Virus record (IMG/VR): IMGVR_UViG_3300038548_000188 | Span: 1 to 45,542 of that record | Strand: one strand, 5' to 3' | DNA from: a virus | DNA length: 45,542 nt | Shown here: piece after piece, positions 8,089 to 45,542 of the stretch | How positions within the stretch are numbered: the first letter of the stretch is position 1 | Layout: every line of letters starts with the position of its first letter | Notes under the pieces: generated by a model | Told to the model about the DNA's origin: nothing | The model's database searches: none | What the model saw: only the letters and a program-made list of their open reading frames with translations | Position numbers and translations under genes: made by a program

Positions 8089-9150
8089 TTAAAATTCGGT
8101 TGTAATCAACCGGGCCGCTTTGATTTGCTTCCGTTCGGGGAAGGTCCGCGCCCAGTTGTTCACGCCGTCAGCGATTTCCGCGTTATCGGGACCGCCGTCA
8201 GGGTTGGCAACGACGCCCGAAAGGAATCGATAGCCGACCGGATGCATCGACCATTCGATACGCGACCAGAGTGATTCCGAACCGCCGCCGTTACCTTCCG
8301 CCGCTTCGCGTTCGACTTCCGCCGGGACCTTCGGATTACCAACGCCCCATCGGGAAGCCTGCGAACCGAAAATCCAGGTATCGAAAACGCCCGCCGCGTT
8401 CGGCATGGTGTCGTCGACAATGACCCGTCGACCCAGGAAGGTCGGAATCGCCGCTGCGGCGGCGTTCACCGCGTCGGGAATGAAGTCGATCAGGTTGTTT
8501 TTCTGCGCCCTGGCAAAAACGATCGAATGCATGAAAACGGTCGTGAAATCTTCCTGACTATCGCCCGCCGTGGTGATCGCATCGATAAACGCTTCGGCTG
8601 AAAAGTCCGTTACGCCTGGGGTAAATGCGCCGGAAATGTCGACGGTCAGATCGTCCTGGACTTCGTTGTTCGTGATGCCCGCGCGCGGATCGTCGTTCGG
8701 CGCAACCTGGGCGTTATCGACGAAAATGCCGGTCCAGGTAGCAACAAAAACCGCTTGCAGGCGGCGACGCCAATAAGCCGCGACACGATTCGCGATCGCG
8801 GTCGACGGATCGCTTCCCGACAAGGCCGCGACCAGGTCCATCGTTTTCCAGCTTTGGTTCCGCGACAACCGGGTCGCGATTTCCTGGTTCGTTTGGATTT
8901 TGTTCGGGACGGCAATCGTCGCCGGGTTATCTGACGACACGCGATCCGCGAGGATATTCGAATCGTCATCGATGTCGCGCCAGGACGGCGCGTTGAAAGT
9001 AGTTCCCCCGCCCGCTAGAAAACCATCTAGCGCCGGATCACGAACAACGACGCCCGAATCGATCAGGTTCGTTTTTTGCTCGGTCATGGTTTGAACGTAG
9101 GGGGCGAATATTTCCGGGACTACGACGTCCGCGATTCTTACTTCTGCCAT
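8089..9150 (-). CDS. Major capsid protein
   Basis: A 353-residue protein starting MAEVRIADVVVPEIFAPYVQ. The N-terminal pattern (IADVVVPEIF), the central FRxA-type ANRVAAYWRRRLQAVFVATWTG, and C-terminal PVGYRFLSG with a final KAARLITTEF fit the family of HK97-fold coat proteins encoded right after a scaffold gene. It has its own leader with hairpin and strong ribosome site (GGAG) and its own terminator. Gene order MuF, scaffold, coat supports it strongly. Confidence 0.88.
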   Translation of the reverse strand: MAEVRIADVVVPEIFAPYVQTMTEQKTNLIDSGVVVRDPALDGFLAGGGTTFNAPSWRDIDDDSNILADRVSSDNPATIAVPNKIQTNQEIATRLSRNQSWKTMDLVAALSGSDPSTAIANRVAAYWRRRLQAVFVATWTGIFVDNAQVAPNDDPRAGITNNEVQDDLTVDISGAFTPGVTDFSAEAFIDAITTAGDSQEDFTTVFMHSIVFARAQKNNLIDFIPDAVNAAAAAIPTFLGRRVIVDDTMPNAAGVFDTWIFGSQASRWGVGNPKVPAEVEREAAEGNGGGSESLWSRIEWSMHPVGYRFLSGVVANPDGGPDNAEIADGVNNWARTFPERKQIKAARLITTEF

Positions 9151-9184
9151 TGTGAAGGCTCCAATTGTTGCCAGCCCTCACGGC
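9148..9184 (-). promoter_or_regulatory. GTGAG hairpin and conserved leader of the major capsid gene
   Basis: Minus strand GCC-GTGAG-GGC (9174-9184) lies 24-34 bases ahead of the coat ATG. The stretch from the start codon back to 9169 (including AACAATTGGAGCC with the GGAG ribosome site) is identical to that of the portal gene over 22 bases. The hairpin is one of seven with the same loop. Confidence 0.7.
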
Positions 9185-9210
9185 GTCGGCGGGTTTAAGT
9201 TCTGGCTAGT

Positions 9211-10065
9211 CTACCTATTTGCGGCGACCGCGCCAAGTTTTACGCCTGCAGCCGTCATAAGACGATCGGCTTCGGCGCGGTTTGCTACTAGCATTGATCC
9301 TTGTTTCGTCATGTTCCAACCGGCTTTCGACCAGGGATTTCCAGCGCCTAAATCGCCGCCGTCCCCGCCGCCGCCGCCGCCGCCGTCATTGTCAGCGCCC
9401 GCGCCCTTCGAAGGCGGCCAAAACATTCTGAATTCCTTTTGACGGGCAGCATTCGAGAAAAAGTCGTCCGCGTTTTGGTTCGGTGTTCCGGACTTCGCGT
9501 CCAGTTTTGTCACGACCGTCCCGTCCTGGGTGACTTCGAAATTTTGTTCCGTCAGTGTTACCAGGTTGCGAACGCCGTCGGGCGTCGCGCCCGCTTTGCC
9601 AGCCGCTTCGGTTAAGGTATTTCTAATTGTTGTGTCCTTAGAATGCCCGATAGCGTCGTCGCGTTCCTGGGTCAGCTTTGCGTTTGAATCGGTCAGGCTT
9701 GAAACGTTGCGTTCCAGGTCATGCAATCGCGCGGCAATGTCGCCGCCGCCCTGGTCCCCGTCATTTTTGCCGTTCCCCTTCCCGCCGCCGTTGTCCCCGT
9801 CGGGACTGGCTTTTCGGAATTTTTCCAACGCGGCGTCGACGTGGGCCAGAATTTCATCACGGGTTAATGGCCCGCCGTTCGCCTTTGAAAAGTCCGCCGC
9901 CCCGTCAGTGAATCGTTTTTTCAATGCTTCCGCGTAGGCGTCGAAATCGACCTGGGTTTTCATCCCTGTCACGTCCAGGACGAACTTCCCGTCCTTTTCG
10001 ACGTAGTAGGATTCTAGTCCCTGGGGAATTGCGGCCTTGTCGGCGATCACTGATTCTAGTGGCAT
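9211..10065 (-). CDS. Scaffold protein
   Basis: A 284-residue acidic protein placed directly before the coat gene. Residues about 110-150 form a coiled coil (ARLHDLERNVSSLTDSNAKL), flanked by Gly/Asp/Asn-rich linkers, and the C-terminal part includes the short motif NPWSKAGWNMTKQG seen in scaffold C-termini that contact the coat protein. It organises procapsid assembly and is then released or degraded. No protease gene is recognised nearby. Confidence 0.8.
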   Translation of the reverse strand: MPLESVIADKAAIPQGLESYYVEKDGKFVLDVTGMKTQVDFDAYAEALKKRFTDGAADFSKANGGPLTRDEILAHVDAALEKFRKASPDGDNGGGKGNGKNDGDQGGGDIAARLHDLERNVSSLTDSNAKLTQERDDAIGHSKDTTIRNTLTEAAGKAGATPDGVRNLVTLTEQNFEVTQDGTVVTKLDAKSGTPNQNADDFFSNAARQKEFRMFWPPSKGAGADNDGGGGGGGDGGDLGAGNPWSKAGWNMTKQGSMLVANRAEADRLMTAAGVKLGAVAANR

Positions 10066-10107
10066 TATTCGGATATCCCTCGCGGATATTTATCGGACTT
10101 GGGCGGG

Positions 10108-10136
10108 ATCATATACCCGGCTTTTTCGTTTTGCAA
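10108..10136 (-). promoter_or_regulatory. Sigma-70-type promoter upstream of scaffold and capsid
   Basis: On the minus strand TTGCAA (10131-10136) and TATGAT (10108-10113) are separated by 17 bases, in a 71-base gap between the MuF-like and scaffold genes. Matches are 4/6 and 5/6 to consensus. This could give extra scaffold and capsid transcripts beyond those from the late operon. Confidence 0.5.
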
Positions 10137-11276
10137 TTAATCAACCGGCGGGGCCGGAATGCCGGACCGCTGAAACGCCCCTGGTTTCGTGTCGTAAAGC
10201 TGGCGAAGCGTAAGCTGTTGACCCTTGTCATTGACGAAGCCGCCCAGGTCGATTTCGCCTTTCCTGAATAGTCGCCCGCGCGTCGGTCCCAGGACTTCAT
10301 TTTGAAAGGCGACGTTTTGCTGGCCTAACCATTGCTGGTAATTCGTTTCAGCCGGGACCCGTCCGACCATCTTATCCAGGGCCGTCCGGCGTTGCGCCCC
10401 GCGCAATCCTGACAGGTTGGCCGACGTCGCTGTCGTCGCGGGCCTCGAACCCAGGCGTCGCCCGTCGATGATCGGGGACCGGACCGACCGGCAATTGAAA
10501 TGGACCGGGGGAATCCAGCCTTCGCCGACGTCGAAAACCTGGCCGTCCAGGGATTGGCAAATCGGGGTCGTCCGGGAATCGAGCGTCGCGACGTAAAGTT
10601 CCTTTTTGATGATCCGTTTATTTTCCTTATACAGTTCGACATAGACGCCATTCTGGATTGCGCTGATCGTCGTTTGCGCCAGGGTTTGCGCGCCCCGCCT
10701 GGTGATTTCCCTGGCCCCGTCGCTTCCGTTTAATGCCCTGGTTCCGAATATGCGGCGGCTGATCTGCGTCGGCGTTTCGCTGAAAACTAAGCCCTGGCGA
10801 ATTTCGTCCATGATCCGCCGCTGGTCGCCGACCTGGTAACGCTTCAACCATTGGGCCAGGACTTCGTTTTCGATCGGTCGGGCGAACACGATCCCGCGAA
10901 GCTGGCGGGGGGATGGTAAAACGACGGGATAAATCACGGGAAGCGATTGGCTGATCACGTTGGAAACGAAGATCGTTTCGCCTTTCGCCAGGGCGATCAG
11001 GTCTTCGCGCACTGCCTTGTTTATTTCGGCGAACGTCGGGTCGTTGATTTCCTTTATCAGCTTAGCGGTTTTGATCATTCGCGCCGTGGTCGCTGGTCCA
11101 GGGTCATAGCCCAGGCCCGCAATTCGATCCAGGCGCGCCTTCAATTTCCTTTGAAGTTCGGGTTCGGCCCGGTTCAGGATCGCCGTGATCCGTTTGGCGA
11201 AGCCGTTCCCGACGCGAATAATCCCGACTTTATGCCGGGTCAGTTCGTCCCGAATTTCCTCGTTACTGGTCGCCAC
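10137..11276 (-). CDS. MuF-like capsid morphogenesis protein
   Basis: A 379-residue protein with the typical MuF signature in the C-terminal half: ATLDSRTTPICQSLDGQVF followed by PPVHFNCRS, placing C240, H259 and C262 as the conserved metal-site-like residues. The N-terminal 200 residues are helical. Such proteins are minor head components, often attached to the portal and injected with DNA. It lies between portal and scaffold genes, 3 bases after the portal stop. Confidence 0.88.
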   Translation of the reverse strand: MATSNEEIRDELTRHKVGIIRVGNGFAKRITAILNRAEPELQRKLKARLDRIAGLGYDPGPATTARMIKTAKLIKEINDPTFAEINKAVREDLIALAKGETIFVSNVISQSLPVIYPVVLPSPRQLRGIVFARPIENEVLAQWLKRYQVGDQRRIMDEIRQGLVFSETPTQISRRIFGTRALNGSDGAREITRRGAQTLAQTTISAIQNGVYVELYKENKRIIKKELYVATLDSRTTPICQSLDGQVFDVGEGWIPPVHFNCRSVRSPIIDGRRLGSRPATTATSANLSGLRGAQRRTALDKMVGRVPAETNYQQWLGQQNVAFQNEVLGPTRGRLFRKGEIDLGGFVNDKGQQLTLRQLYDTKPGAFQRSGIPAPPVD

Positions 11277-11279
11277 GGT

Positions 11280-12935
11280 TTACGCCTGGTCGTCGTCGTT
11301 GCCGTCGTCGTTGCCGTTGCCGTTGCCGTTGCCGCCGTCGCCGTCGCCCTGGCCGCCCTGGTTGCCCTGGTTGCCGTCGTCGTCACCTTCGCCCAGGCCG
11401 TCATCGGTCCCGGCCAGGACTTCGATGTCGTCTTCGATCGCGATTTGTGCCAGTTCGTCGTCGAAGGTCATTTCGGTCAAATCCTTTTGACGCATCCAAC
11501 CGTGAATCGATTTCCAGGACAGCGGGGTCCCGGCCTTTTTCGCGACCGCGAATTTCACCAGTTCGCCGGGATCGTTCGATTCGTCAATGAAGTCCAGGTT
11601 CGGTTCGACCTTCACTTCGTCAGGATTGGCCCCGACCCATTCCGCACAAATGCGAAGGATCGATTCCAGGGCCGTCGCGCTGGTCATAGCGATCGTTTGA
11701 AGCGTCGCCGTCCTGGCCGCGACTCTGATTCGCAGCGTTTCGGCGGCTTCGGCCCCGGCCCCGCTGGACATTAATTTGATGCCTTCTTCGCCCGCCCTGG
11801 TGTAATCGTTTTCCAGGCTGATCCGCTGTTCCTGTAATGCTTTGGAATCCGGGCCGATGAATTTCGCGTCCGCTTCCGGGTCGGGAAGGGCCAGGTATGC
11901 GCCGGACCCGATGATCGGCTTCGCGTCCTTCGACGGGTTTTCGCCGTCATTGGAATCCAGGTCGACGCCGATTAATACCAGCGTATCCTGACCCGACATA
12001 AACAAGGCCGAACGGTGATCGGCTTCGCCCCGGTAAATCGCCAGGGCCAGGTTTGCCAGGTTGATCAACGGAACTTCCCCCGGCTTCGTCGCCAGGTCGG
12101 TCGTATTCACGAACACGAAGGGGATTTGTTCCAGCGTTTTCCCCCGGATATTCGGTTGGATCGCGCCTTGAAGTGCGCCGTCGCGTTCGACCTGGCTGGA
12201 ATAAATGTTCTGACTAGGGTCGCCCAGGCTTAACGCCCGATAGCGTGATACAAGGTTCCATGTGAAACGGTCGCCCGTGTCGCGTTCGTACCGGCTTTCG
12301 TCGATGACAACCATCAACAGCCGCCGGATCGCTTCCGATCGCTTGCCGTCATCGATTTGTTTATTGTTCATGGTTTCGGTCAGGTCGTCCCAGTTCAAGA
12401 CCTGGGGGGCCGGGTATTGGATCAACAGCGGAAGGTCGCTGTTTGGATCGACGTCGGCCAGGATGCCCAGGCGACCATATAACAGCTGATTCATATGGAT
12501 TTGAACCAGCAGATCGTCCAGCGATTCGCCCTTCGGCGTCGATATTTCGCGCATATCTTCCAGGGCCGCCGGTAATTCGATGTTCGCCGGTTCACGGTCC
12601 AGGATGCCGGTCAACGCGCGGACCGTTTCCTTCACCAGGTCGGGGAAAAATGCCCGCTGCAGATAGGCCGCATAAAGGTTCAGCCCTTCGTCGGACAGGA
12701 CGTTCGGATTCGCCGACAGCGCCGTCATTCCGGAAGTCGCCTGCAGGTACTTTGTCGACTTGCTTTTGATATGCCGCTGGCCTTCGTTCGTGTCGAACAT
12801 GGTGATCCAGTCGGGTTGCCTCGCTGAAAAATCCGGATGCGGCGTCGCGATCGCTGACCCGCCCGCCGTGGATTGTGGTTCGGTTGTGATGCCTGGCTGC
12901 AGGGGGGCGGTTTTATTTTGTAACAATGTCGACAT
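11280..12935 (-). CDS. Portal protein (DUF4055 type)
   Basis: A 551-residue protein; the segment DWITMFDTNEGQRHIKSKST through LNLYAAYLQRAFFPDLVKET and the RALTGILDREPANIELPAAL stretch match the DUF4055 class of phage portals. The portal dodecamer is the DNA entry channel and docks the terminase. The last 40 residues are an unusual low-complexity acidic tail made of Asp, Gly and Asn (GDGDGGNGNGNGNDDGNDDD). Its leader is shared with the capsid gene. Confidence 0.88.
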   Translation of the reverse strand: MSTLLQNKTAPLQPGITTEPQSTAGGSAIATPHPDFSARQPDWITMFDTNEGQRHIKSKSTKYLQATSGMTALSANPNVLSDEGLNLYAAYLQRAFFPDLVKETVRALTGILDREPANIELPAALEDMREISTPKGESLDDLLVQIHMNQLLYGRLGILADVDPNSDLPLLIQYPAPQVLNWDDLTETMNNKQIDDGKRSEAIRRLLMVVIDESRYERDTGDRFTWNLVSRYRALSLGDPSQNIYSSQVERDGALQGAIQPNIRGKTLEQIPFVFVNTTDLATKPGEVPLINLANLALAIYRGEADHRSALFMSGQDTLVLIGVDLDSNDGENPSKDAKPIIGSGAYLALPDPEADAKFIGPDSKALQEQRISLENDYTRAGEEGIKLMSSGAGAEAAETLRIRVAARTATLQTIAMTSATALESILRICAEWVGANPDEVKVEPNLDFIDESNDPGELVKFAVAKKAGTPLSWKSIHGWMRQKDLTEMTFDDELAQIAIEDDIEVLAGTDDGLGEGDDDGNQGNQGGQGDGDGGNGNGNGNDDGNDDDQA

Positions 12936-12971
12936 TGTGAAGGCTCCAATTGTTCGACCCTCACGGTCGAA
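12933..12971 (-). promoter_or_regulatory. GTGAG hairpin and conserved leader of the portal gene
   Basis: This is the best-paired copy of the element: TTCGACC-GTGAG-GGTCGAA, seven base pairs (12953-12971), between the terminase stop and the portal ATG. It is followed by AACAATTGGAGCC and the start codon. The gap to the terminase stop is too short for a promoter, so the element most likely acts in RNA. Confidence 0.75.
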
Positions 12972-12974
12972 GTT

Positions 12975-14513
12975 TTAAACGGCCCCGGAAATCGATCCGG
13001 AACTGGGCGGTTTTGGTTTACGGGCGGCCCGATGGTATGCGCGGGAAAAGGCGTCGACCTGATCGGCAAATGACCCCCCTGGAAACTGACAAATTTCGTC
13101 CAGAAAGGCCGTGTTCCAATCGCCGCGAACGATGTAGACGTTCCCGGCTTCGGCCTGCGCTGCAGGTGCGGCGGCCCGAAGTGTCTTTTCCCCGGATTCG
13201 GGTGAAAAGTAAATTCGGAACCTGGGGAAGTCCGCCGCGATGTCCTGCGCTTGCGCCTTCCCGGCTTGCCCTGGGTCCTGCGGGAAATCGATTATTACGC
13301 CTTTCCCGTCCGCTTCGCCCGTATCGGTCATTAACGTCCGAACTTTTAAAGGCGATCCACGAAGACGAACCACGTCAACGACAATGATCATAGGCTTCGC
13401 GTAGAAAATTAACAAGCCGACTGTCCAGGCCGCTTTTTTCCCGCCGGTCGCCTGGTCGTCCGTCGCGGCCAAATCCCAACCCCGGACCCAGGACCCTTTT
13501 TTCGGCACGTCGGCCCGGTCCATAAACTTCCCCTTGAACCATTGCCGTTTGAACAACCCGCCTTCCCTGGGGGCTGGCCGTTGTTGCATTTGGCCCGCCG
13601 TGGCATAGCTTCCGATTTCCGTTTCGAGCGTCGACAGCCGGGGTTCGTCGAACAGTTCCGGCCATAACAATTCCCCTTCGTCGGACCTGAAATCGCCCGG
13701 TAACTTTCGCCCCGACTTTTTCAGCGTGATCGGGACGCTGGCGAATGGATGCTTTTTTTCGTATCGGGCCGGTAAACACAAGTGAACCAGGTCAGCGCCG
13801 TCGGCGATGATATGGCCAGCATAGTCGCGCGAATGTAAGCGTTGCATCATCACGCAAGCCCCGCCGTTCTTCGATCGAATCCTGGTCGGAAGGGCCATTC
13901 GAATCCGTTCGACGATCGCGTCCCGGTTGTCGTCGCTTTCGGCCTGTTCGACATTGTGAGGATCGTCCAGGATAACAAAGTCGCCGCCTTCCCCCATGAT
14001 CCCGGCGGTCGACGTGCTAAATCGATAGCCGCCGAATTCATTGGCGAAGCGGGTTTTCTGATCCTGGTCCTTGCGGATCGCGAGTTTCGTTTCTCGCAGC
14101 GCCCCGACAACAGCCCCCCAGCGTTCTTGATACCATTCTGACCGGATCAGTTGCCGGGTTTTGTCCGCGTCACGAAGGGCCAGGTCGGCCCGGTAACTGG
14201 TCGCCATGAATCGAAGGCCGGTTCGCGACGACTTCGTCCAGGCCCAGGCATTCAACAGGACCGAAACCGTCAGGCTTTTCATATGGCCGGGCGGGATATT
14301 TAACAGCAGGCGCGGTATTTCCCCGGCGATAAAGGCTTCCAGGTATTCGCACATAATGTCGACGTGACGACCGTCAATAAACGGGATCGGGTCCAGGTAC
14401 GGAAACGCGTTTCGGACGAATGCATGAAAATCCGTTTCCATCCGTTCCGCCATTTTGGCTTGAAGGAACGGAAGATTTTCATAATCACCCAGTGACGGGA
14501 TCAGGCGGCGCAT
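12975..14513 (-). CDS. terL: Terminase large subunit
   Basis: A 512-residue packaging motor. Walker A is IPPGHMKS at residues 73-80 and Walker B is FVILDDPH near 179-186, followed by the HSRDYAGHI segment and a C-terminal RNase H-like nuclease whose first acidic residue is in VRGWDLAATDDQ (Asp 347). It cuts the concatemer and pumps DNA into the procapsid. The gene overlaps the small subunit gene by 29 bases. Which packaging mode (headful or cohesive) cannot be told from sequence alone; the permuted ends favour headful. Confidence 0.93.
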   Translation of the reverse strand: MRRLIPSLGDYENLPFLQAKMAERMETDFHAFVRNAFPYLDPIPFIDGRHVDIMCEYLEAFIAGEIPRLLLNIPPGHMKSLTVSVLLNAWAWTKSSRTGLRFMATSYRADLALRDADKTRQLIRSEWYQERWGAVVGALRETKLAIRKDQDQKTRFANEFGGYRFSTSTAGIMGEGGDFVILDDPHNVEQAESDDNRDAIVERIRMALPTRIRSKNGGACVMMQRLHSRDYAGHIIADGADLVHLCLPARYEKKHPFASVPITLKKSGRKLPGDFRSDEGELLWPELFDEPRLSTLETEIGSYATAGQMQQRPAPREGGLFKRQWFKGKFMDRADVPKKGSWVRGWDLAATDDQATGGKKAAWTVGLLIFYAKPMIIVVDVVRLRGSPLKVRTLMTDTGEADGKGVIIDFPQDPGQAGKAQAQDIAADFPRFRIYFSPESGEKTLRAAAPAAQAEAGNVYIVRGDWNTAFLDEICQFPGGSFADQVDAFSRAYHRAARKPKPPSSGSISGAV

Positions 14514-14988
14514 GTAAAAGTTTTTGTAACCTGATCAGTTCTTCCAGTTCTTCGGTCGATAGATTGTCGACGTTCGGCTGGACCGCTGTCGGGACCAGCG
14601 TCCCGTCCGATTTATGTTCCAGGACTTGCGTCGGCTTAAAATGCGGGTGTCTGTTCTTCAAGCAAAATTCCAGCAGGCGATCCGACTTTTCCATTTGCGT
14701 ATGAAACCGCGTTTCCTTGTCGTCGACGCTTATGACGTGAACGTATGGGGTTTTTTTCTCGACCCCGTCGATTCCCCGCCGCCAGGCTTCGGCCTCGCCA
14801 GCGTCCAGATATTCGGCCAGCCCGTCGTCCCATTCCATTTTGAAATCCGGATCACGTTCGGCCAGGTCGTACCAGGATGACCGATTCATTTCGCCTTTTT
14901 TGGCCGCCGCCGTGACGCGCCCGGTCCGCTTCAATTCGGCCAGGAATAGAAGTCGGCGGCGGGGGGTTATGTTTTTTTTTCGTGCCAA
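14485..14988 (-). CDS. terS: Terminase small subunit
   Basis: A 167-residue protein with an N-terminal helix-turn-helix (GRVTAAAKKGEMNRSSWYDL) and an acidic oligomerisation region (EWDDGLAEYLDAGEAEAWRR), as in phage small terminases that recognise the pac site. The start is TTG at 14988; GAGGG, part of the GTGAG hairpin, sits seven bases before it and is the only good ribosome site. The C-terminus overlaps the large subunit gene. Confidence 0.8.
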   Translation of the reverse strand: MARKKNITPRRRLLFLAELKRTGRVTAAAKKGEMNRSSWYDLAERDPDFKMEWDDGLAEYLDAGEAEAWRRGIDGVEKKTPYVHVISVDDKETRFHTQMEKSDRLLEFCLKNRHPHFKPTQVLEHKSDGTLVPTAVQPNVDNLSTEELEELIRLQKLLHAPPDPVTG

Positions 14989-14994
14989 CGTTCA

Positions 14995-15005
14995 GCCCTC
15001 ACGGC
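14995..15005 (-). promoter_or_regulatory. GTGAG hairpin before the terminase genes
   Basis: Minus strand GCC-GTGAG-GGC. Here the 3' half of the element (GAGGG) also serves as the ribosome site for the TTG start at 14988, so folding would compete with translation initiation. Two tandem CAACCCGA units lie just upstream (about 15016-15032). Confidence 0.65.
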
Positions 15006-15035
15006 GTGACATAGTTGTCGGGTTGTCGGGTTGTT

Positions 15036-16148: not shown

Positions 16149-16157
16149 ATCCACAAG

Positions 16158-16842: not shown

Positions 16843-16872
16843 CGGCGGCGATGGTAGCAAAAACCGCGACAA

Positions 16873-18373: not shown

Positions 18374-18817
18374 CTATTCGAACTCGAATTCAACTGTCAG
18401 CTTGAACGATCCTTCGTCCGCTACCAGCTTGTTAAACTCTACACAGGACGCCGTCGTCGATGAACACAGGCGATCGGCGACTTCGTCGTAACTATGCGAA
18501 CAGCCGCCGCAACCGACGAAGTTTACAATCTCATTTCCCCTATGCGCCAGGATGCAAAGATAGCGACCGCCGTCGGGTCGGCCTGGCGAATATTCGAACT
18601 CGTAAACATTCAAATCGGGGTTGACCATCAGAAAAACTTCGCCGTATTTGTCGGACGAAAACGGGATCAGGTCATAATCGCCCAGGGGGACGCATGATTC
18701 GAAGGGTTTGTTCCCCAGGTCGGGCGGTTCGATGGTATGCCAGGTCTTCCCGCCTAGCCTGATGACGCCGTGCGTTCCTTTTTTGCTTCGGTCGTCGCGT
18801 GTTCGTGTAATGGTCAT
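18374..18817 (-). CDS. DUF5675 protein, candidate cell-wall enzyme
   Basis: From the ATG at 18817 (GGGG ribosome site 5-8 bases before) the protein is 147 residues; a TTG eight codons earlier is less likely. It has the DUF5675 order of elements: GTHGVIRLGG, TIEPPDLGNKP, CVPLGDYDL, then HRGNEIVNFVGCGGC with His 92, Cys 103 and Cys 106. The His ... Gly-Cys layout recalls L,D-transpeptidase-type active sites, so a peptidoglycan-directed role is possible. It is the first gene of the lysis cassette and no lysozyme, amidase or SAR endolysin is visible elsewhere. Confidence 0.65.
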   Translation of the reverse strand: MTITRTRDDRSKKGTHGVIRLGGKTWHTIEPPDLGNKPFESCVPLGDYDLIPFSSDKYGEVFLMVNPDLNVYEFEYSPGRPDGGRYLCILAHRGNEIVNFVGCGGCSHSYDEVADRLCSSTTASCVEFNKLVADEGSFKLTVEFEFE

Positions 18818-18840
18818 TTTTCCCCGCTGTAGTTTCGGCA

Positions 18841-18851
18841 ATCCTCACGAT
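18841..18851 (-). promoter_or_regulatory. GTGAG hairpin in the lysis-cassette leader
   Basis: Minus strand ATC-GTGAG-GAT, the A/T-containing version of the element, about 24 bases before the DUF5675 start. Both non-closing base pairs differ from the other copies, yet pairing is kept. Confidence 0.6.
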
Positions 18852-18864
18852 CGACGGGGCGACC

Positions 18865-18898
18865 TTATAACAAATTCAGAAAGTTTTCAAAATGTCAA
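18865..18898 (-). promoter_or_regulatory. Probable late promoter region
   Basis: In an AT-rich island of an otherwise GC-rich genome, the minus strand has TTGACA (18893-18898, a perfect -35 sequence) and TTATAAG (-10-like, 18864-18870). Their spacing, 22 bases, is longer than the usual 16-18, so either one is not used or an activator is needed; three repeated elements lie directly upstream. It precedes the lysis, packaging, head and tail genes and follows a terminator, as expected for a late promoter. Confidence 0.5.
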
Positions 18899-18905
18899 TG
18901 TTGGC

Positions 18906-18984
18906 ATGTTGCCACTATGGGCGGTTTTGATGTTGCCACTATGGCGGAAACGTAAGCGGGGCGCGGTTTTGATGTTGCCACTAT
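18906..18984 (-). repeat. Three copies of a putative activator site upstream of the late promoter
   Basis: The minus-strand core ATAGTGGCAACAT occurs at 18906-18918, 18930-18942 and 18972-18984. Copies two and three share 22 identical bases including AAAACCGC. Spacings are 24 and 42 bases. They sit between the early terminator and the -35 sequence, with no gene, so they look like binding sites for a phage or host activator. Confidence 0.65.
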
Positions 18985-24579: not shown

Positions 24580-24882
24580 TCAGTTGATTTTCAGCTTATT
24601 CCCGTCTTCGTCGATTGGCCAACCTTTCGCGTTGTATGCGTTGGGATTCATTCGGCGATCGCCGGGGATGATAAAGCCGTCCAGGCTGGACAGTTGTCCG
24701 CAGCGTCGACAGCGATAATTAAATTTATATTCACGGGTGATCCCGCCGGTCCAATCCATTACCGCGCCAATCACTTCGGTCCCGACCAGCTTCCGCTTAT
24801 GCCGACAAAACGAACGCCGGATTTCCGTGGCCAGCTTTTCGCAGGCGTCGCTGAAATTCTGGAAGGCTTCGACGGTTGTCAT
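24580..24882 (-). CDS. Probable zinc-binding protein (CxH ... CxxC)
   Basis: A 100-residue protein with CRHK (Cys 26, His 28) and CRRC (58-61), a spacing seen in small phage zinc ribbons in which the first knuckle uses Cys and His. The C-terminus is Asn/Asp/Lys-rich (GWPIDEDGNKLKIN). Overlaps the upstream gene by four bases. Confidence 0.6.
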   Translation of the reverse strand: MTTVEAFQNFSDACEKLATEIRRSFCRHKRKLVGTEVIGAVMDWTGGITREYKFNYRCRRCGQLSSLDGFIIPGDRRMNPNAYNAKGWPIDEDGNKLKIN

Positions 24883-25190
24883 TGGTGAAGGGCGGCGTCG
24901 CTGAAATGCGAAGACTTTTCGAAAGCGGAAAGGCTGTCCCAGGTTTTGATCAGCGGCGGGGTTCGGGGTTCATACTTCGCGGCGGGACCAACATCGAACC
25001 GGGCCATTCGGTCCAGGACGCGATCGAACGCGGGTCCATTGTGATCGGGAAGCCGACGACTTCCCCAGGTTGTCGAATTATCGCGCCCGCAGTTCGCGCA
25101 ATGATAGCGAACGTTCGGCGGGTCAATAACGAAGTGAATCGTCCGCGACCCGCAGGCCCCGCACGATTCGAAATAGCGTTCCAGTTCCAT
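24879..25190 (-). CDS. Zinc ribbon protein, Lar-like
   Basis: A 103-residue protein with CGAC at 10-13 and CANC at 31-34 (ESCGACGSRTIHF ... YHCANCGRD). The pattern resembles Lar-type restriction-alleviation zinc ribbons and other phage ribbons, but the C-terminal 65 residues are unlike them. First gene after the early leader with its attenuator-like structure. Ribosome site AGGGG before the ATG. Confidence 0.6.
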   Translation of the reverse strand: MELERYFESCGACGSRTIHFVIDPPNVRYHCANCGRDNSTTWGSRRLPDHNGPAFDRVLDRMARFDVGPAAKYEPRTPPLIKTWDSLSAFEKSSHFSDAALHQ

Positions 25191-25203: not shown

Positions 25204-25246
25204 AAAATAAAAGCCCTGACCAGGGTCGTCGCTGACCCTCACGGTC
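25204..25246 (-). terminator. Leader with GTGAG hairpin and alternative terminator stem
   Basis: On the minus strand the GTGAG hairpin (GACC-GTGAG-GGTC, 25234-25246) is followed by a stem CCCT-GGTC-AGGG and TTTTATTTT (25204-25212). The 3' arm of the first hairpin (AGGGTC) can instead pair with GACCCT downstream over six bases, so the hairpin and this second stem exclude each other. The arrangement has the form of an attenuator between the regulator gene and the early operon. Confidence 0.5.
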
Positions 25247-25308
25247 GCGATTTGGTTAAACGATTACTGTGATAATCAAAGGTTAATCGACCCGGTCAGG
25301 GAAATCGG

Positions 25309-38524: not shown

Positions 38525-38526
38525 TG

Positions 38527-39531
38527 TTAAGCGGTTTCTCGACGATACGCGGTCCCGCCATTCCACGATTGTTCCAGGTTATCGAGGGGAACGAATTTTT
38601 TAATCGACCAGGGGAAACAAAACCAGTCTTCGCCCGCGACCGTGATGATTTCGCCCGGTTCGATGTTGGCCATATTGACCAGCCTGGCGTCGGGATGCGT
38701 TCCTAATAAAATAATAGTATCGGGGACCGGGCTGGAATCGGCATAAAAAACCGGCATAGGCCAAAGCGGTTTGAATGCTGACAATTGCGACAACTCGATC
38801 CAGTTTCCCGCCCTGGTCATTCCCCCGCGACTGGAACCCATGCCGCGCCCGCGATCTTCCCCGGCGCGATCGAGGCCCGCCGGGAACGTCGCCAGGGTGT
38901 TCACGATGACCCATTGTTCCGCACCGACGGCAAACGGCAGCCCCGGCGCGCGAACAGTAGCCGCGAAGGCTTGCGACGCGCTTCCCCTGTCGTCCAGTAA
39001 ATAGGCGTGTTGTGTCGAGTCCGGTAAGTCCGCTTGAGCGCCTTGCGCCCAAAAAGTCCCGTAATAATATTCGCCGCCCGCCCAGTCGCCGACCTTTTCA
39101 AGGTTCCCGAATCCGAAATGACGGAAACGATTCGTCGATATTTCGACGACAACGTGAATATATGCCGGGTTGGAATCCTGTTCAAAAAACCAGAATGCGA
39201 CGTGTGGTCCAGCGGATTCGTTAATACAGCGCGCCGTGTCAATCGCTTGCGGGAATGTATCGCCTTGACTATACATTTGGCCATCGTCGCCAGTTGAAAG
39301 CCAGGGGTCCGCCGTGTCATCGTTCGACGTGTTGCCGCCGATCCCGATCACGCCTTCGGCTTCCGACCAAATAAACGTCACGAATACGCCGCCTTTCGAC
39401 AACAACATTCGACCAGGGTTCGCCCCTTCCGCCGTGAATCCGTCCTCAGTCCAGCCGTTCGCCTGGGCGAATGTCGACAACTGGGTCAACAGGTTTTCGA
39501 GCGACGACGATGTTCCGGTTTGAAAAGCCAT
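38527..39531 (-). CDS. Tail structural protein, hypothetical
   Basis: A 334-residue protein starting MAFQTGTSSSLENLLTQLST. It reads as an N-terminal helical part (FAQANGWTEDGF) and a beta-rich, aromatic C-terminal part (NWIELSQLSAFKPLWPMPVF). Homologous-looking proteins sit between tape measure and hub genes in siphoviruses whose tails resemble those of YuA-type Pseudomonas phages, to judge by layout. Exact role unknown. Confidence 0.65.
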   Translation of the reverse strand: MAFQTGTSSSLENLLTQLSTFAQANGWTEDGFTAEGANPGRMLLSKGGVFVTFIWSEAEGVIGIGGNTSNDDTADPWLSTGDDGQMYSQGDTFPQAIDTARCINESAGPHVAFWFFEQDSNPAYIHVVVEISTNRFRHFGFGNLEKVGDWAGGEYYYGTFWAQGAQADLPDSTQHAYLLDDRGSASQAFAATVRAPGLPFAVGAEQWVIVNTLATFPAGLDRAGEDRGRGMGSSRGGMTRAGNWIELSQLSAFKPLWPMPVFYADSSPVPDTIILLGTHPDARLVNMANIEPGEIITVAGEDWFCFPWSIKKFVPLDNLEQSWNGGTAYRRETA

Positions 39532-39533
39532 AA

Positions 39534-40826
39534 TTAGAAATTCCGCTTGATTGCAAAATGCGCCCAGGTGTCCGTCCGGTTGCAGTTTTGAAAAATAATA
39601 TAAGTGTTCCCGGCGGCGTCCGTGAAAGTGTCTTCACTGACCGCCCCTATCCCTTTCGTGATGATCGGATAAACGTCGATCAATTCCCCCAGGATTTGAA
39701 TCGATGGTAATTGCTGGATCAGTAGGTTCGGCCATAAAAACTGGATATCGCCGCCCGAATCCGGGGTCGGGTCCAGTTGCGCGTCGGGCGCGAAATCACT
39801 TCGACCGCCGAACCATTCGTCCGCCTGTGCGTTTATAGATTCGGGACCTGAAAATCGATTAACTTCGGTGATTACGAGTGAAGTATTTAACAATTGACGA
39901 CAAGGCCAAATCCCCCTTTGTTGCGGGTTGTCTGTATTCTTATTCGGCCCGAACGCGTTTCTGAATCTGTACCATTGACCATCGACTTCGCGCAGCGCAG
40001 CCGGTCCGCCGTCGGCAGCGAGGAAAGCGTCCGGGTCATGCATTCCCGATTGAAAATTGGAACTGTCGTTGTAAGGGACCGATCGCGCTGGCGAAGAACT
40101 GCAGCCCGAAATATAAAGCGGGTAAGGGTATTCGGCGGCGGTCGTATAGGTGTTAATAAATCCCGTGTAAAGGTTCGTATACGATGACCCCGATTTAAAA
40201 ATCCCCTTGATATGAAACGGATCGATGACGAAAAAATAATCGATTATTCCGTTGTTCAGCGGCGTCGAAATGTCGTCGACGCCGATCGTTTGATTCGACG
40301 ATCCTGGTTGATCGTCAAATAATTCGCCGTTGTCGAATCCGCTGGCCCCGTGAATTTCCCAATAGAAGACGCCCGCCGGGGTATTCCGCCGGGTTTGGAA
40401 ATTACAAAAAATCGCTTCCGCGCCTGACCCTAATCCATGCATTAATAACTCGCGTTCGGGCGTGTCGTATATCGCCGAACGGTCGACGATCCAGCCAGTC
40501 GTCAGGATAGTTGTGTCAACGGTCAGATTGATCCCGACCGACGGAAATATCGCGGTCACGGTCGCCGCGACGCCAGGGTTCACAGTGTAGGCCCCGCCGT
40601 TGAACAGGCGGATCGATGACGGGACGCCGCCCGCTTCGGCCAGGATTTCGCCGGACGCGTTCAAGCCGTTGACAACGGTCCCGCCGTTGATGTCGAACAG
40701 GTCGCCGACCGCCCAACCCGTCCCCGCGACATTGATCGCCAGCGTATCGACGTGACTGTTCGCGGCCAGGTCTTCCAGTTGAACCATTAAATCGATGTAA
40801 TCGGTCGCCTGCGCTTGATGGTACAT
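39534..40826 (-). CDS. Tail structural protein with GxGWxVGD module
   Basis: A 430-residue protein. Near residue 36 it contains GTGWAVGDLFDINGG followed by LFNGGAYTVNPG, the same module found in the capsid-region protein at 6816-7487. The remainder is beta-rich and aromatic (HIKGIFKSGSSYTNLYTGFI). Located directly after the tape measure. Probably a distal tail component. Confidence 0.65.
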   Translation of the reverse strand: MYHQAQATDYIDLMVQLEDLAANSHVDTLAINVAGTGWAVGDLFDINGGTVVNGLNASGEILAEAGGVPSSIRLFNGGAYTVNPGVAATVTAIFPSVGINLTVDTTILTTGWIVDRSAIYDTPERELLMHGLGSGAEAIFCNFQTRRNTPAGVFYWEIHGASGFDNGELFDDQPGSSNQTIGVDDISTPLNNGIIDYFFVIDPFHIKGIFKSGSSYTNLYTGFINTYTTAAEYPYPLYISGCSSSPARSVPYNDSSNFQSGMHDPDAFLAADGGPAALREVDGQWYRFRNAFGPNKNTDNPQQRGIWPCRQLLNTSLVITEVNRFSGPESINAQADEWFGGRSDFAPDAQLDPTPDSGGDIQFLWPNLLIQQLPSIQILGELIDVYPIITKGIGAVSEDTFTDAAGNTYIIFQNCNRTDTWAHFAIKRNF

Positions 40827-40839
40827 AGTTGTTTTTCCC

Positions 40840-43074
40840 CTATCCGCCTACAACGCGTTTTACGGCGTCGGGATTGCGTTGAATAATATTCATTACCGCT
40901 TCATTTCCTTCGGCGGTATTCAGGCCCGCCGGGATATCCGCCGGGTCGGTGATGTTGTTGATCGTCACATTCGGCGCAGCCTGGGCCGCCTGGTTGATGC
41001 TGATGTTCGGCTGGATGCTGCCCGACCCTGGGGGCGTGAACAGTTCCGGACCGCGTTCGCCGACCAGGATCGGCTGACCGCCCCGGACCTGGCCCCCGGC
41101 CTGAAAGCCGCCGCCAAACAGCGACGCGAAGATACCACCAGCCCCGCCGCCGCCCGCAGCCCCGCCGCTGGCAATGCCGCCAATGATGTCAAAGATTTCG
41201 GACGCCAGGGCGTCGGCTGCGAGTTGTTGCAGGGTTTGGGCGAACTTAAGCGGCAATTCGTCCAGCCCTTCGGACATAGGATCGGCCAGAATTCCGGCCA
41301 GGGTATTCTGTGCGGAGTCGCGCGCGTCTTCGAAAAATTCGCCCAACTTGTCCGCGCTTTCCGCCAGGGCGTCCTGACCGTTCAACAGTTCTTCGGTCAG
41401 TTCGCGAATTCGTTCGGCCTGTTCAGCGGTCGCCCCGCCTGCCAGGGCGCGAAGTTCGGCATTGATCGCCAGGGCTTCGTTGTCCGCGCCTAACAATTCG
41501 ACTTCTTCTTCCAGGGCTTCGATCTGATCCTGGAAGGACTGGCGGATCGATTCGTTTTCGATTTCCTCTCGTAACGCCCTTTGCGCGGTCAATGCTTCTT
41601 CGGCAAAGGCCAGGAACGAAACCCGAAGGGCCTCGACTTCGTCGGTCGGGGCCAGGTCCTTAAATATCTCGTTTTCGGCGTTGGCCAGCGCCAGGTTTTC
41701 CTTATATTGCCGAATGCCTTCGGCGGCGTCTTCGCCCAGGGCCTTTTGAAGTTCCAGGACAGTCCGTTGACTGGACAGGGCGTCCTGAAATTTTTGGACC
41801 GCTTCGATCGCGTCGTCGACGTCTTCCTGGACGTTCGTCGGGATGATGGTGACGTCCCCGCCGTCGGGGCCGCCGCCCAGGTCAATCGCTTCCGCGATTT
41901 CCCTGGAACCAGCATCCCAAATCTGTTCCAGGTCTTTGATGATTTGTTCCGAATTCTTGATCAGATTCGGACCCAACTGGCCGAACCCTTCCTGGAAATC
42001 CTTCGCGGCGGCTGCGCCCAGTTCGTCGAATATTTCCCCGACCCTGGCGAAGTCGCCCGTTATCAGCGCGGCGAACGATTCGGCCAACGCGCCCAACAAG
42101 TCCAGGACCCCGCGAACTGCAGCGCCGAACGTGGCGTCGAAGATCAGCGACAAGCCTTCGAAGGCCCCGCCGACGATGATCGCGGTCGTCGCGATAACTT
42201 TCATTGATTTCGATAGTTCGTCGGTCGGCTGCAAAGTCCCCGTGATCGCTTTGGTGAAATCGTCGATTCCGTCCGATATAGCCAGCAGGACCTTTGCCAA
42301 ACCCTGCCCGGCCCCGGTTGTGTCGTTCATTTTTCCGACCAGGTTTAGAAATGAATTACTGATCGTTTGCGTTGCCTGCGATAGTGTCGCTTCGGTCTTT
42401 GCGAACTGTTCGTCAATGCCTTCGCCGCCTTTCAATATGGCTTCGAAAAATTCCTGCGAACTGACCTTCCCTTCAATGACCAGGGTCCGCAGTTTGCCGA
42501 CACTGATCCCGGCTTCCCCAAACCCGCGCGCGGCGGCCTGGGCGAGTGGGAACGCGCCTTCCAGGATGCTGTTGAATTCTTCGCCCCGGACGATCCCCGA
42601 ACTAAATGACTGTGACAACTGGCGCAGCGCGCCCGATGATTCCTGCGCGCTCGCTCCCATGATCGCCAGCGCCTTCCCGCTGATTTCGGTCAGCCTTAAA
42701 AGCTGTTCCTGACTGGCCCCTAATTCGTCCGCCGCAATCGCTGACCGGCCAAATAGTTGTGCGGTCGCTTCGAAGCTGGTCCGGGTGTTTTGCGAGATAG
42801 CGAACAGGCGTTCCTGGACGTTCGCCAATTCCGCGCTTGAATCGGTAACGATCCGCAATCGGTTTTGAAGGCCCTGGTAAGCGTCGACGGCCTGGAAAAT
42901 TTCACGAACGACCAGGGACGCGGCGAACGCGGTCGCTGCAGCGGCGGCGGCCTTGAAACCTGACGACAATCCTTTGGAACGCCCTTCCAGGCGTCTTAAT
43001 GATCCTTCGGCCTGGCGCGCGCCCCTGGTGACGCCGCTGGAATCGACCACGACCCGAATAATTCGATCAGTCAC
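40840..43074 (-). CDS. Tape measure protein
   Basis: A 744-residue protein with the N-terminal tape measure signature (QGLQNRLRIVTDSSAELANV, FEATAQLFGRSAIAADELGA, FSSGIVRGEEFNSILEGAFP). The middle is helical, with hydrophobic segments (KVLLAISDGIDDFTKAITG). The C-terminus ends with the common GGQVRGGQPILVGERGPELF motif. It sets tail length; at about 0.15 nm per residue, a tail near 110 nm is expected. It overlaps the frameshifted chaperone by four bases. Confidence 0.93.
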   Translation of the reverse strand: MTDRIIRVVVDSSGVTRGARQAEGSLRRLEGRSKGLSSGFKAAAAAATAFAASLVVREIFQAVDAYQGLQNRLRIVTDSSAELANVQERLFAISQNTRTSFEATAQLFGRSAIAADELGASQEQLLRLTEISGKALAIMGASAQESSGALRQLSQSFSSGIVRGEEFNSILEGAFPLAQAAARGFGEAGISVGKLRTLVIEGKVSSQEFFEAILKGGEGIDEQFAKTEATLSQATQTISNSFLNLVGKMNDTTGAGQGLAKVLLAISDGIDDFTKAITGTLQPTDELSKSMKVIATTAIIVGGAFEGLSLIFDATFGAAVRGVLDLLGALAESFAALITGDFARVGEIFDELGAAAAKDFQEGFGQLGPNLIKNSEQIIKDLEQIWDAGSREIAEAIDLGGGPDGGDVTIIPTNVQEDVDDAIEAVQKFQDALSSQRTVLELQKALGEDAAEGIRQYKENLALANAENEIFKDLAPTDEVEALRVSFLAFAEEALTAQRALREEIENESIRQSFQDQIEALEEEVELLGADNEALAINAELRALAGGATAEQAERIRELTEELLNGQDALAESADKLGEFFEDARDSAQNTLAGILADPMSEGLDELPLKFAQTLQQLAADALASEIFDIIGGIASGGAAGGGGAGGIFASLFGGGFQAGGQVRGGQPILVGERGPELFTPPGSGSIQPNISINQAAQAAPNVTINNITDPADIPAGLNTAEGNEAVMNIIQRNPDAVKRVVGG

Positions 43075-43876
43075 AACTGGCCCCCGGTTACTGTTGGTTT
43101 AACTTCGATAGGTTTGGCGGCCTTGTCTTTTGCGGCGTCGTCCAGGCCCTTCCAGTGATCCGTCAGGATGCGATCGGTCGCCCAGATAATCCGCTTCAAC
43201 GTGTCCGGGTTCAGGCCGTAGGCTTGCGCATAGGTTACGATACTACCGATCGGAATCATTCCTCGCGGGGTTTGGCGTTCCGTGATTAAGTCCCGATAGG
43301 CTTCCCAATACAGGATATTTTCGGCCTGGATTTCCGGCGGGTTTATGATGTTGTCCGGGGGTTGAAGTCCACGTTCACGGTACGCGGCGATTATGTTTTC
43401 GTTGACGCCCTGGTCGCCGACCCGAAGTTGATGGTCCAGGACGTCGGTCAGTTTCCCGTTATTTCCTTTTCCGTTTGCGCCCGGTAGTGTCCCCAGGTCC
43501 GCGCGACTTTCTGGATCGCTTCGAAGAACTTCGGGGCCTTTGTGAACAGGGCCGTCCCGTTCTTTTCGCCGAACTTCAATTTCGGGTCCTTCCGATCCGC
43601 CGGGTCGGTCCATTTCCATCCGGTTATGACCGAGCGAAGATATAAGCGAAATAAATATTCGTTGTCTTTGCCCGGTTCCAGATCGTTGATGTCCTTCACG
43701 GTCGCTTTCAATTCCTGGGCCAGATCGGCGGCGGCCTTGCGATAATCGGCATTCAAAACGGCGTCCGCCGGTCGGACAGTCACGATACAAATGACCTTCC
43801 CTTCGAATTCGATTTCGCATTCCCGCCCCTTGTCAACTAATGATTGACTGGTTTCGAATGCCTCTAAAACCCTCAC
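43071..43876 (-). CDS. Tail assembly chaperone fusion (gpG-T-like) made by -1 frameshift
   Basis: The 142-residue chaperone reading frame ends at TGA 43448. Just before it, at 43451-43457 on the minus strand, is the heptamer GGGAAAC in the correct phase (G-GGA-AAC), a classical -1 slippery site. Slippage joins the first protein (…EKEITGN) to LTDVLDHQLRVGDQ in the second frame, giving about 268 residues ending at 43071, four bases into the tape measure gene. The second part (ENIIAAYRERGLQPPD) is the T domain that loads the tape measure. Confidence 0.82.
43448..43876 (-). CDS. Tail assembly chaperone (gpG-like)
   Basis: A 142-residue protein with GTG start at 43876 preceded by a GGGAG ribosome site nine bases away. 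Acidic-basic mixed helices (VLEAFETSQSLVDKGRECEI, LAQELKATVKDINDLEPGKD). The GTG lies within the loop of a GTGAG hairpin. It is the short product of the frameshift pair and would coat the tape measure during tail assembly. Confidence 0.8.
   Translation of the reverse strand: MRVLEAFETSQSLVDKGRECEIEFEGKVICIVTVRPADAVLNADYRKAAADLAQELKATVKDINDLEPGKDNEYLFRLYLRSVITGWKWTDPADRKDPKLKFGEKNGTALFTKAPKFFEAIQKVARTWGHYRAQTEKEITGN
43451..43457 (-). promoter_or_regulatory. Slippery heptamer for -1 ribosomal frameshift
   Basis: GGGAAAC read as G-GGA-AAC, with the stop TGA immediately after. It is of the same type as the lambda GGGAAAG site. I did not identify a clear downstream pseudoknot. Confidence 0.75.
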
Positions 43877-43881
43877 GGTCT
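43867..43881 (-). promoter_or_regulatory. GTGAG hairpin at the start of the chaperone gene
   Basis: Minus strand AGACC-GTGAG-GGTTT pairs over five positions in RNA (one G-U). The loop's GTG is the start codon of the chaperone gene, so folding would hide the initiation site. Confidence 0.6.
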
Positions 43882-43911
43882 AAACTCCCGAGGCAATTCG
43901 CCCCCGTTGAT

Positions 43912-45426
43912 TTACCTGGCGAACGATACGTTTTGCGTCGAAATCGTATAGCCAAAAATAGGCGACAAAATCGCCTGATAGGTTCCCGGAATTGTAACGT
44001 CCTGATTTTTGCCAGGGACGTCCGGCGCGCCCCCTGAAAATTTGATTCGCGGCATATCAAAGACCATCGAACGACCGTCGCCGCCCTGGGTGATTAAGTC
44101 CAGGGACGTTTCCGAATTGTTCAAAATGACCTGCAATATTTCGTCGTTGTCGAAGTAAGTCGACAGCGTACCAGTGACCGACAATTCACCAACGCCAAGC
44201 CCCGAAGCGCCGAACACGCCGACGGCGGGCTGGCGGCGAAGATTATTATTGATTTCGATCGTCGCTTCCAGGACGAAATTCACGCCGCCCGCGTCGATCG
44301 CGTCAACGCCTCGACCAAGCCGACCGATGTCGCTGGACGTGTTGTAAACGTCGAACTGTTCGGCGGGGATATCGTTCGGAAGGTTTTCGTATAGCTCCGG
44401 GTAAGCCGCTGCGTTGTCCGATACGGCTGAATTGAAACCGAACCAGGTCATCGACCCGACCGCGATCGCTTGCGGCGATAGCGTCAAATTGAAGTTGTTC
44501 AGCGCCATCCCCAGGAACAGTTCGCGGGTGACTGGCGAATGGTCTTCGAAGCGACGTTCGACAGCGAATTGGTTCGACGCGATCGCGTCCGCGCCATTCT
44601 CGACGCGGGACCCGTAGAACGCTTGAACGTTTTCCGTCGCAGCGGCGTCCGTAACCATGCCCGTTTGCGCGTCGACCGTGACCGTATCGGCGGCCAGGTC
44701 GATTTCCCTGACCCGGTTCCAGATATTGTTCGCGGCGGTTGCGAATTCGGCGAACTTGATCCACTGGCCGATTAACATCGGCGCAGCCGGACCGAAGGCG
44801 TCGTCGAGCGCGCCAGCCGGGAACGTGAACACGGCGTCCGAACCTGTAACGACCAGGGAAATATCGCCGGGGGTTTGCGCTTCGAAGCCGGTCACTTCGA
44901 AATTCGTGTCGGCGTCAGCGGTTTCCGTTCCCAGGACGGCGGTCGTCGCGGTTCCTGGTAATGGGACCAGGGTCAAAACGTTGACCGCGATATTCGCGAT
45001 CGCGAAGATTCCGTCGCCGACGTCGCCGGTCAACAGCTTATCCAGGCGGGCGATCTGTCCGACCGTGAAGTCCGATCCCGCGTCGACGTCGATCGTACCA
45101 ACGCCGAACGCCGTGATTTCGCCGGTCCCGACTTTTTTGATCGTGTTCGCGTAGGTTGAAAAAAGCGCGCCCTGGATCAAAGCGTCGAACGCGGCGTAAG
45201 ATAATTCGATCCCAGTGTCGCCCCCGGCTTCCGCGCCGACCAGGATCAGGTCGGAAATCTGACGGTCGGGCCTGATCTCATTACTGACGATCGTATTCGG
45301 CACGAACGCAAGGTTCGGCGTTCCCGTGAATCGAAGCTGATCAAGGTTAAAAGGTCCGCCAGGAATGGGGGCGGTCCGTTGTGAACTTAGGAAAAAGCGT
45401 AGTCCGACGCGATTAGTATCTGACAT
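43912..45426 (-). CDS. Major tail tube protein
   Basis: A 504-residue protein with NTIVSNEIRPDRQISDLILV followed by GGDTGIELSYAAFDALIQGA, the pattern of large siphovirus tail tube proteins. Residues about 150-270 form an inserted beta-domain (TGFEAQTPGDISLVVTGSDA), probably displayed on the tube surface. The C-terminal SPIFGYTISTQNV fits subunit contacts. Its length is above the usual 150-300 residues, explained by the inserted domain. The leader carries a GTGAG hairpin and ribosome site GAGAGGA. Confidence 0.85.
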   Translation of the reverse strand: MSDTNRVGLRFFLSSQRTAPIPGGPFNLDQLRFTGTPNLAFVPNTIVSNEIRPDRQISDLILVGAEAGGDTGIELSYAAFDALIQGALFSTYANTIKKVGTGEITAFGVGTIDVDAGSDFTVGQIARLDKLLTGDVGDGIFAIANIAVNVLTLVPLPGTATTAVLGTETADADTNFEVTGFEAQTPGDISLVVTGSDAVFTFPAGALDDAFGPAAPMLIGQWIKFAEFATAANNIWNRVREIDLAADTVTVDAQTGMVTDAAATENVQAFYGSRVENGADAIASNQFAVERRFEDHSPVTRELFLGMALNNFNLTLSPQAIAVGSMTWFGFNSAVSDNAAAYPELYENLPNDIPAEQFDVYNTSSDIGRLGRGVDAIDAGGVNFVLEATIEINNNLRRQPAVGVFGASGLGVGELSVTGTLSTYFDNDEILQVILNNSETSLDLITQGGDGRSMVFDMPRIKFSGGAPDVPGKNQDVTIPGTYQAILSPIFGYTISTQNVSFAR

Positions 45427-45440
45427 TTTTGGCGGTCCTC

Positions 45441-45542
45441 TCGGTTATAAAACCCGCCTCACGCGGTACGGTAACTATCATAATCTATCTGGGCGCTGAC
45501 GTTGACCTGGAAAAAATCGTTGATCCTTCCGGCTTCCGTCAT
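45441..45542. repeat. Right copy of the 102-bp end repeat
   Basis: Identical to 1-102. It contains the hairpin CCGC-GTGAG-GCGG (45454-45466 on the minus strand) that precedes the tail tube gene by about 27 bases, and the 3' end of the tail terminator gene whose TGA stop lies in the hairpin loop. Confidence 0.9.

Follow-up and report, generated by a model that had tools for sequence, protein, structure and literature searches.

A GUGAG-loop RNA hairpin repeated at the starts of virion genes in a siphovirus: a candidate translational operator with counterparts of other loops in related phages

The coat-protein operators of MS2 and PP7, like those of T4 gp32 and RegA, are autogenous translational operators of phages, and the scaffolding protein of P22 (gp8) is autoregulated post-transcriptionally, with no RNA operator defined for it to our knowledge. 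Small hairpins with a fixed loop are also found in phage transcripts as the lambda boxB/nut and HK022 put sites; the start-associated sites of cluster K mycobacteriophages are conserved DNA sequences, and Com of phage Mu is a small zinc-binding protein that activates translation by acting on mRNA structure. Here we analyse a set of hairpins with a GUGAG loop in the IMG/VR virus record IMGVR_UViG_3300038548_000188 (45,542 nucleotides (nt); hereafter the window, meaning the whole of this stretch of DNA) and in related phages. As in autogenous translational operators, the element is a conserved RNA hairpin at the translation-initiation region. We consider it probable that these hairpins all represent a single RNA operator of the sense strand, placed at the initiation regions of virion genes, read by a phage protein and tuning translation.

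The window is a circular siphovirus contig with an exact 102-bp direct repeat at its ends (1-102 and 45441-45542), as expected of a circular or terminally redundant assembly. Its structural genes match PHROG families (TerL phrog_38, portal phrog_145, scaffold phrog_206, capsid phrog_247), and the capsid protein shares 50-57% identity with its counterparts in NP1 and other phages of the Queuovirinae type; a scan of genome contigs with the same protein returned only distant matches (47-50%) and did not identify a host. The motif CGTGAGG occurs eight times in the window, every time on the minus strand, and represents seven unique sites, since 17-23 and 45457-45463 are a single site doubled by the end repeat; the original prediction, which had listed seven minus-strand hairpins and equated 14-26 with 45454-45466, is accurate on both counts. 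The number of occurrences is by itself ordinary (8 versus 5.7 expected by chance). A shuffle of the motif count alone was uninformative, as was the ranking of all 1024 pentaloops in each genome, in which GTGAG headed the 4-pair list only in the window and in two relatives (L013 and L024). What distinguishes the sites is their structure and placement: each of the seven has a complementary pair of arms and is followed, 0-52 nt downstream, by the start of a gene on the same strand, the chaperone site overlapping the start codon. Start-proximal zones cover 4.2% of strand-positions, and all seven sites fall in such zones of their own strand (P = 2.5e-10 versus uniform placement). The genes behind them encode the terminase small subunit (TerS), the portal, capsid, tail tube and tail chaperone proteins, a DUF5675 protein and the product of the first gene of the leftward operon. 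The observation is therefore real and the GUGAG hairpins are confirmed.

The same element can be followed through the close relatives of this phage. A relative of the window capsid is encoded by 38 viral contigs, to which searches with the tail-tube protein and TerL added further loci; the counts that follow are of distinct orthologous leaders. A GUGAG hairpin with a covarying stem is present in 29 of 29 tail-tube leaders. At the chaperone starts the GTGAG loop is found in 31/31, with 19 paired at the threshold used, and those displayed have a GTG start followed by AGR as codon 2. The loop is conserved in 34 of 36 capsid leaders (31 of these paired) and in 23 of 35 scaffold leaders (10 paired); some relatives also have the hairpin ahead of the portal, TerS or g6047 gene, and none has it in the orthologous leaders of the tape-measure, minor-head and TerL genes. 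A related phage with the sites absent or unpaired, the refuting case of the original prediction, was looked for: close relatives nearly all keep the hairpins, and distant ones have another loop but retain hairpins in the scaffold and capsid leaders.

The stems covary as expected of RNA. In 76 aligned copies from the window phage and its relatives, 94.7% of the pair cells are paired versus 57.7% after shuffling (0/500), with a covariation score of 0.993 versus 0.304; all four inner pairs have changed on both sides, and shifting the partner by a single column makes the signal collapse. These figures are descriptive, as some copies in the pool were chosen for pairing and related sequences are counted repeatedly. 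The tail-tube set alone, which was not chosen for pairing at pair 4, has this pair formed in 96% of cases versus 55% (0/1000 shuffles). On the sense strand G-U outnumbers A-C by 29 to 7 (p = 1.6e-4), which places the pairing in the sense transcript, and the hairpins themselves are biased to that strand, with sense/antisense counts of 8/0, 9/1, 10/4 and 10/2 in four genomes. The covariation, the preference for G-U over A-C and the strand bias together support the view that the GUGAG element acts as a sense-strand RNA, as had been proposed from the compensatory stem changes in the window alone; an N4-type single-stranded DNA promoter or a cruciform in DNA was dropped in view of the G-U versus A-C asymmetry. 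The closing C-G pair, originally described as invariant, is so at all CGTGAGG sites of the window, whereas relatives use C-G, U-A or U-G. In lambda nut a purine-rich, GNRA-like pentaloop is closed by a variable stem; the stem is variable here too, and the GUGAG loop could perhaps adopt a GNRA-like fold with its last base flipped out.

Hairpins with other loops occupy the corresponding places in more distant phages. Among the Queuovirinae and relatives, those with a CAUGRG loop are found in the scaffold and capsid leaders of Pseudomonas, Vibrio, Acinetobacter and Roseobacter phages, and those with an ACGG loop in the same two leaders of E. coli, Klebsiella and Pantoea phages. In 8 annotated relatives ATGA and ATGG are the most enriched noncoding sense tetraloops (10 and 7 copies in 6 and 5 genomes, with 1 and 0 antisense copies), most of them C-AUGR-G hairpins of scaffold and capsid leaders; in MiCath, HD01 and JG054 the start codon of the scaffold gene coincides with one C-AUGR-G loop. 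Among the noncoding hairpins of Seurat, 9g, Vid5 and Klebsiella Kpn2-P2, 10/31 have the loop ACGG, mostly in scaffold and capsid leaders, with 0 antisense. Such hairpins do not cluster in the replication regions of NP1, MiCath and HD01, where seven matches are scattered on both strands over ~96 kb. In a maximum-likelihood capsid tree, whose bootstrap is not fully settled, the GUGAG phages form one clade (94/94) that includes relatives at ~55% identity, and the ACGG phages form another (85/99). The different hairpins of one genome have the same loop, for which a shared trans-acting binder would be the simplest reading, and the window has the loop of its lineage in its capsid leader. Taken together, the hairpins form a family of cis-acting RNAs in gene leaders, spread widely over the phylogeny and with a loop fixed in each lineage. 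Rfam has no match above the gathering score in the window and four relatives, and we found no description of the family in the literature searched. A covariance model of 21 positions, of the kind suggested in the original prediction, recovered all sites of the window, its weak E-values being unsurprising for a motif of this length; a looser pattern (CGTGAGG with GGAG and ATG) sought in viral contigs gave at least 2 hairpins in 2/80 loci among the matches listed, a chance level, and was set aside.

The seven hairpins and the genes that they precede are all on the minus strand of the window. The tail-tube leader hairpin (45454-45466, copied at 14-26 by the end repeat) stands upstream of the gene of the major tail (tube) protein (43912-45426, phrog_290; its position is that of the tail tube in NP1-like phages), and the TGA with which the upstream gene (19-540) ends falls inside the hairpin loop. 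The hairpin at 43867-43881 spans the start codon of the short tail assembly chaperone gene (43448-43876), the GTG lying within the loop. In every relative displayed the gene likewise begins with GTG; such fixation is unusual, and the position of the codon in the loop would account for it. The TerS hairpin (14995-15005) is 14 nt upstream of the TTG start at 14988 of the terminase small subunit gene (14485-14988), whose best Shine-Dalgarno (SD) sequence is the GAGG of the loop and 3' arm. The portal hairpin (12953-12971) has 7 pairs and is 29 nt upstream of the portal gene (11280-12935); the capsid hairpin (9174-9184) precedes the major capsid protein gene (8089-9150, phrog_247). The hairpin at 18839-18853 is 31 nt upstream of the DUF5675 gene (ATG at 18817), and a direct repeat of CGCCCATAGTGGCAACAT-like units runs just upstream of it (18890-18950). 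SD sequences or start codons in or beside hairpins comprise the chaperone GTG and the TerS GAGG and, in relatives, a scaffold GAGAGGA and a second hairpin at the operon head. The original prediction needs correcting at the chaperone site (43867-43881), which is a leader only in part. Its description of each site as the head of a functional block had broadly the right labels, although the supposed lysis gene encodes the DUF5675 protein, whose role is unproven, and the supposed early gene is a zinc-ribbon-like open reading frame (ORF).

This last gene, the first of the leftward operon (24879-25190, minus strand), encodes 103 aa with two CxxC motifs and has no Pfam match. Its hairpin (25234-25246) lies in the upper part of a predicted intrinsic terminator or attenuator (25204-25301, minus strand; stem CCCTGACCGGGTCG...CGACCCTGGTCAGGG, then CTTTTATTTT; folding z -3.35); at most sites of the window there is no U tract directly 3' of the hairpin. 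Five relatives have the same architecture of a terminator with a built-in hairpin and, unlike the window, carry a second GUGAG hairpin right after the U tract, adjoining or covering the SD of the operon's first gene. A first gene with two CxxC motifs is present in the window and in the relatives read, except G001, where the second operon-head hairpin is followed instead by a five-codon ORF (MLCSK, then stop; L278:5400-5440). Since the zinc-ribbon gene was not found in this genome, in which the hairpins persist, it was dropped as an obligatory binder.

We have observed a sense-strand RNA hairpin, the identity of its loop, its position at start codons, its conservation and a lineage-wise exchange of the loop (GUGAG, CAUGRG, ACGG); from these we infer binding by a protein, its phage origin and translation as the output. 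The hairpins would represent one operator repeated in the initiation regions of virion genes and a few others, whose fixed loop a single RNA-binding factor recognises in trans. This factor would most probably be a phage product that coevolves with the loop, and its binding would adjust the translation initiation of each gene and so keep head and tail parts in proportion. In the original prediction three roles had been put forward, and the binding site of a phage regulator is the one that fits best. Several points weigh against this account. The capsid-leader hairpin is ~31-55 nt upstream of the AUG, too far for a simple overlap with the ribosome, so that another output (activation, stability) would be needed there; the TerS and portal hairpins occur in only some relatives; the window's own scaffold leader has no hairpin (G004 and G005 have one); and 12/31 chaperone sites are under the pairing threshold because their closing pair is mismatched. 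The binder might instead be the product of a fast-evolving gene or a host protein.

The best single candidate for the binder is the head scaffolding protein (9211-10065, minus strand), acting autogenously, although we regard this assignment as doubtful. Among the proteins of the window, only capsid, scaffold and portal are detected in 12/12 of the distant carriers sampled, other genes being found in fewer or none, and it is in the leaders of the scaffold and capsid genes that the hairpins of these phages sit; the scaffold profiles of GUGAG, AUGR and ACGG phages are homologous (hhalign 100%). In the Guernseyvirinae (Jersey, K1G) the capsid is a distant homologue and the scaffold is only weakly similar (66-72% probability, C-terminal part); these phages have no leader because the gap between scaffold and capsid genes is 2-3 nt, a pattern that is compatible with autoregulation by the scaffold and falls short of showing it. 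The scaffold protein is acidic overall, and a Foldseek search with its AlphaFold2 model gave no known RNA-binding fold and no informative fold, both of which count against it. A basic 175-aa gene after the capsid gene (7491-8018) was dropped as a universal binder, as no homologue was detected in the distant carriers. A more ambitious version of the proposal, which we hold only tentatively, is that of a multi-gene post-transcriptional regulon extending over the subfamily, in which one phage protein, possibly the scaffold, would read a loop-coded hairpin on capsid, scaffold, tail and other mRNAs, and evolution of the protein would have been accompanied by a concerted change of the loop code (GUGAG, CAUGRG or ACGG) in all copies, so that translational circuits insulated from each other would keep the virion parts in balance.

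An autoinhibitory RNA switch, which would be a special form of the same operator, seems unlikely to us. Here the capsid-leader hairpin would compete with a long-range helix to the capsid SD and AUG, and a factor that stabilises the hairpin would activate the capsid gene and repress the scaffold gene, whose SD or start is in its own hairpin. In the window the GTGAGGG of the hairpin is complementary to a CCTTCAC at 9152-9158 (minus strand) adjoining the capsid ATG, a possible alternative pairing that would hide the SD; comparable helices can be drawn in G005 (GGCCGTGAGGGCTC with GAGACCCTCATGGCC, 14 pairs) and MMDA13 (CCATGGGACAGG with CCTGTCCCATGG, long and near-perfect), and within the GUGAG clade CYTCAY occurs at 21/30 capsid starts versus 1/21 tail-tube starts. 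However, matched leader-start pairs in this clade are no better than mismatched ones (1427/2000 permutations as good) and only marginally better in AUGR phages (42/2000), and the same loop in the tail-tube and other leaders is left unexplained. Control of transcription, with nascent-RNA hairpins serving as boxB/nut or put sites or as attenuators that set terminator readthrough, is improbable as a general account. The terminator-embedded hairpin of the operon head, shared by the window and five relatives, hints at attenuation in that one place, several relatives have terminator-like stems 3' of the capsid gene, and a promoter-like TTGNNN-N17 element can be seen by eye ahead of some capsid hairpins; but an operon normally needs only one antitermination site, whereas the copies here recur from gene to gene within operons and also span start and stop codons, several of them containing the start codon or SD, and no boxA-like motif (CTCTT/CTTTA, within 60 nt upstream) is found at the 7 sites. 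The boxB-like role also put forward originally therefore fits less well than that of a regulator site.

We give little credence to the third proposed role, an element for mRNA processing or 5'-end stability that is cut or protected by a ribonuclease: the sites are near the 5' ends of presumptive late transcripts and the loop is fixed, but with 3-7 pairs the stems would make short substrates for RNase III, a cut in the loop would destroy the hairpins that span start codons, and a lineage-wise exchange of loops among phages of related hosts (E. coli versus Vibrio/Pseudomonas) is unlike what a conserved host nuclease would produce. Nor do we think it probable that a host RNA-binding protein or the ribosome reads the loops; GAGG, AUGR and GUG do recall SD sequences or start codons, but ACGG resembles neither, and the type of loop tracks the phylogeny of the phages. 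Chance hairpins or coding constraint, which could be argued from the unenriched raw motif count and from some GTGAG in the TerL and scaffold coding regions of relatives that look protein-constrained, are refuted for the leader set by the covariation in the 76 copies, the conservation in orthologous leaders and the placement of the sites.

Other features were noticed around these genes. In several relatives a long GUGAG hairpin (GAGGCCGGCC-GTGAG-GGCCGGCTC) directly follows the capsid gene (L013:11078-11105 and equivalents; its loop is GTGAT in L199), and the window has none. Queuovirinae-type capsid leaders contain a large inverted repeat (CTCATGCTACA...TGTGGCATGAG), seemingly across a promoter -10 element (L295:7281-7431, with equivalents in L298, L301, L302 and L313); TTGACA stands at the start of the gap in Seurat, 9g, Vid5, Iggy and Siara. 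An ORF of 729 aa in the window (2217-4406) has no PHROG or Pfam match, lies in an insertion between head genes relative to NP1 and has weak homologues (27-28%) in relatives.

How the amounts of scaffold, capsid and tail proteins are set post-transcriptionally in tailed phages is poorly understood, and the hairpins are a defined, conserved RNA element ahead of exactly these genes. Their presence in E. coli phages (Seuratvirus, Nonagvirus) that laboratory strains can support makes the question directly testable; should a phage protein prove to read them, the three classes of loop would provide RNA-protein pairs already insulated from one another.

These observations can be set against the systems described at the outset. 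With the start-associated sites of cluster K the hairpins share repetition near gene starts, and differ in that here pairing is conserved and the sequence of the stem is not. Mu Com has a candidate parallel in the two CxxC motifs of the first operon gene, but this gene has no Pfam match and was not found in G001, which keeps its hairpins. Like boxB/nut and put, the element is a small hairpin with a fixed loop, one copy of which is in a terminator; unlike them it has no boxA and is present in many copies per operon, at start codons. The P22 system resembles what we propose in that post-transcriptional control of the scaffold gene is tied to assembly, although P22 is unrelated and binding by the scaffold is, in our case, a proposal. 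The closest likeness is to the operators of MS2, PP7, gp32 and RegA, which are also small, loop-specific hairpins at the ribosome binding site, with a variable stem and a start codon that may lie in the hairpin; in contrast to these, the present hairpins, with their putative binder, occur in many copies on many genes of a double-stranded DNA siphovirus, and their loop has been exchanged in concert between lineages.

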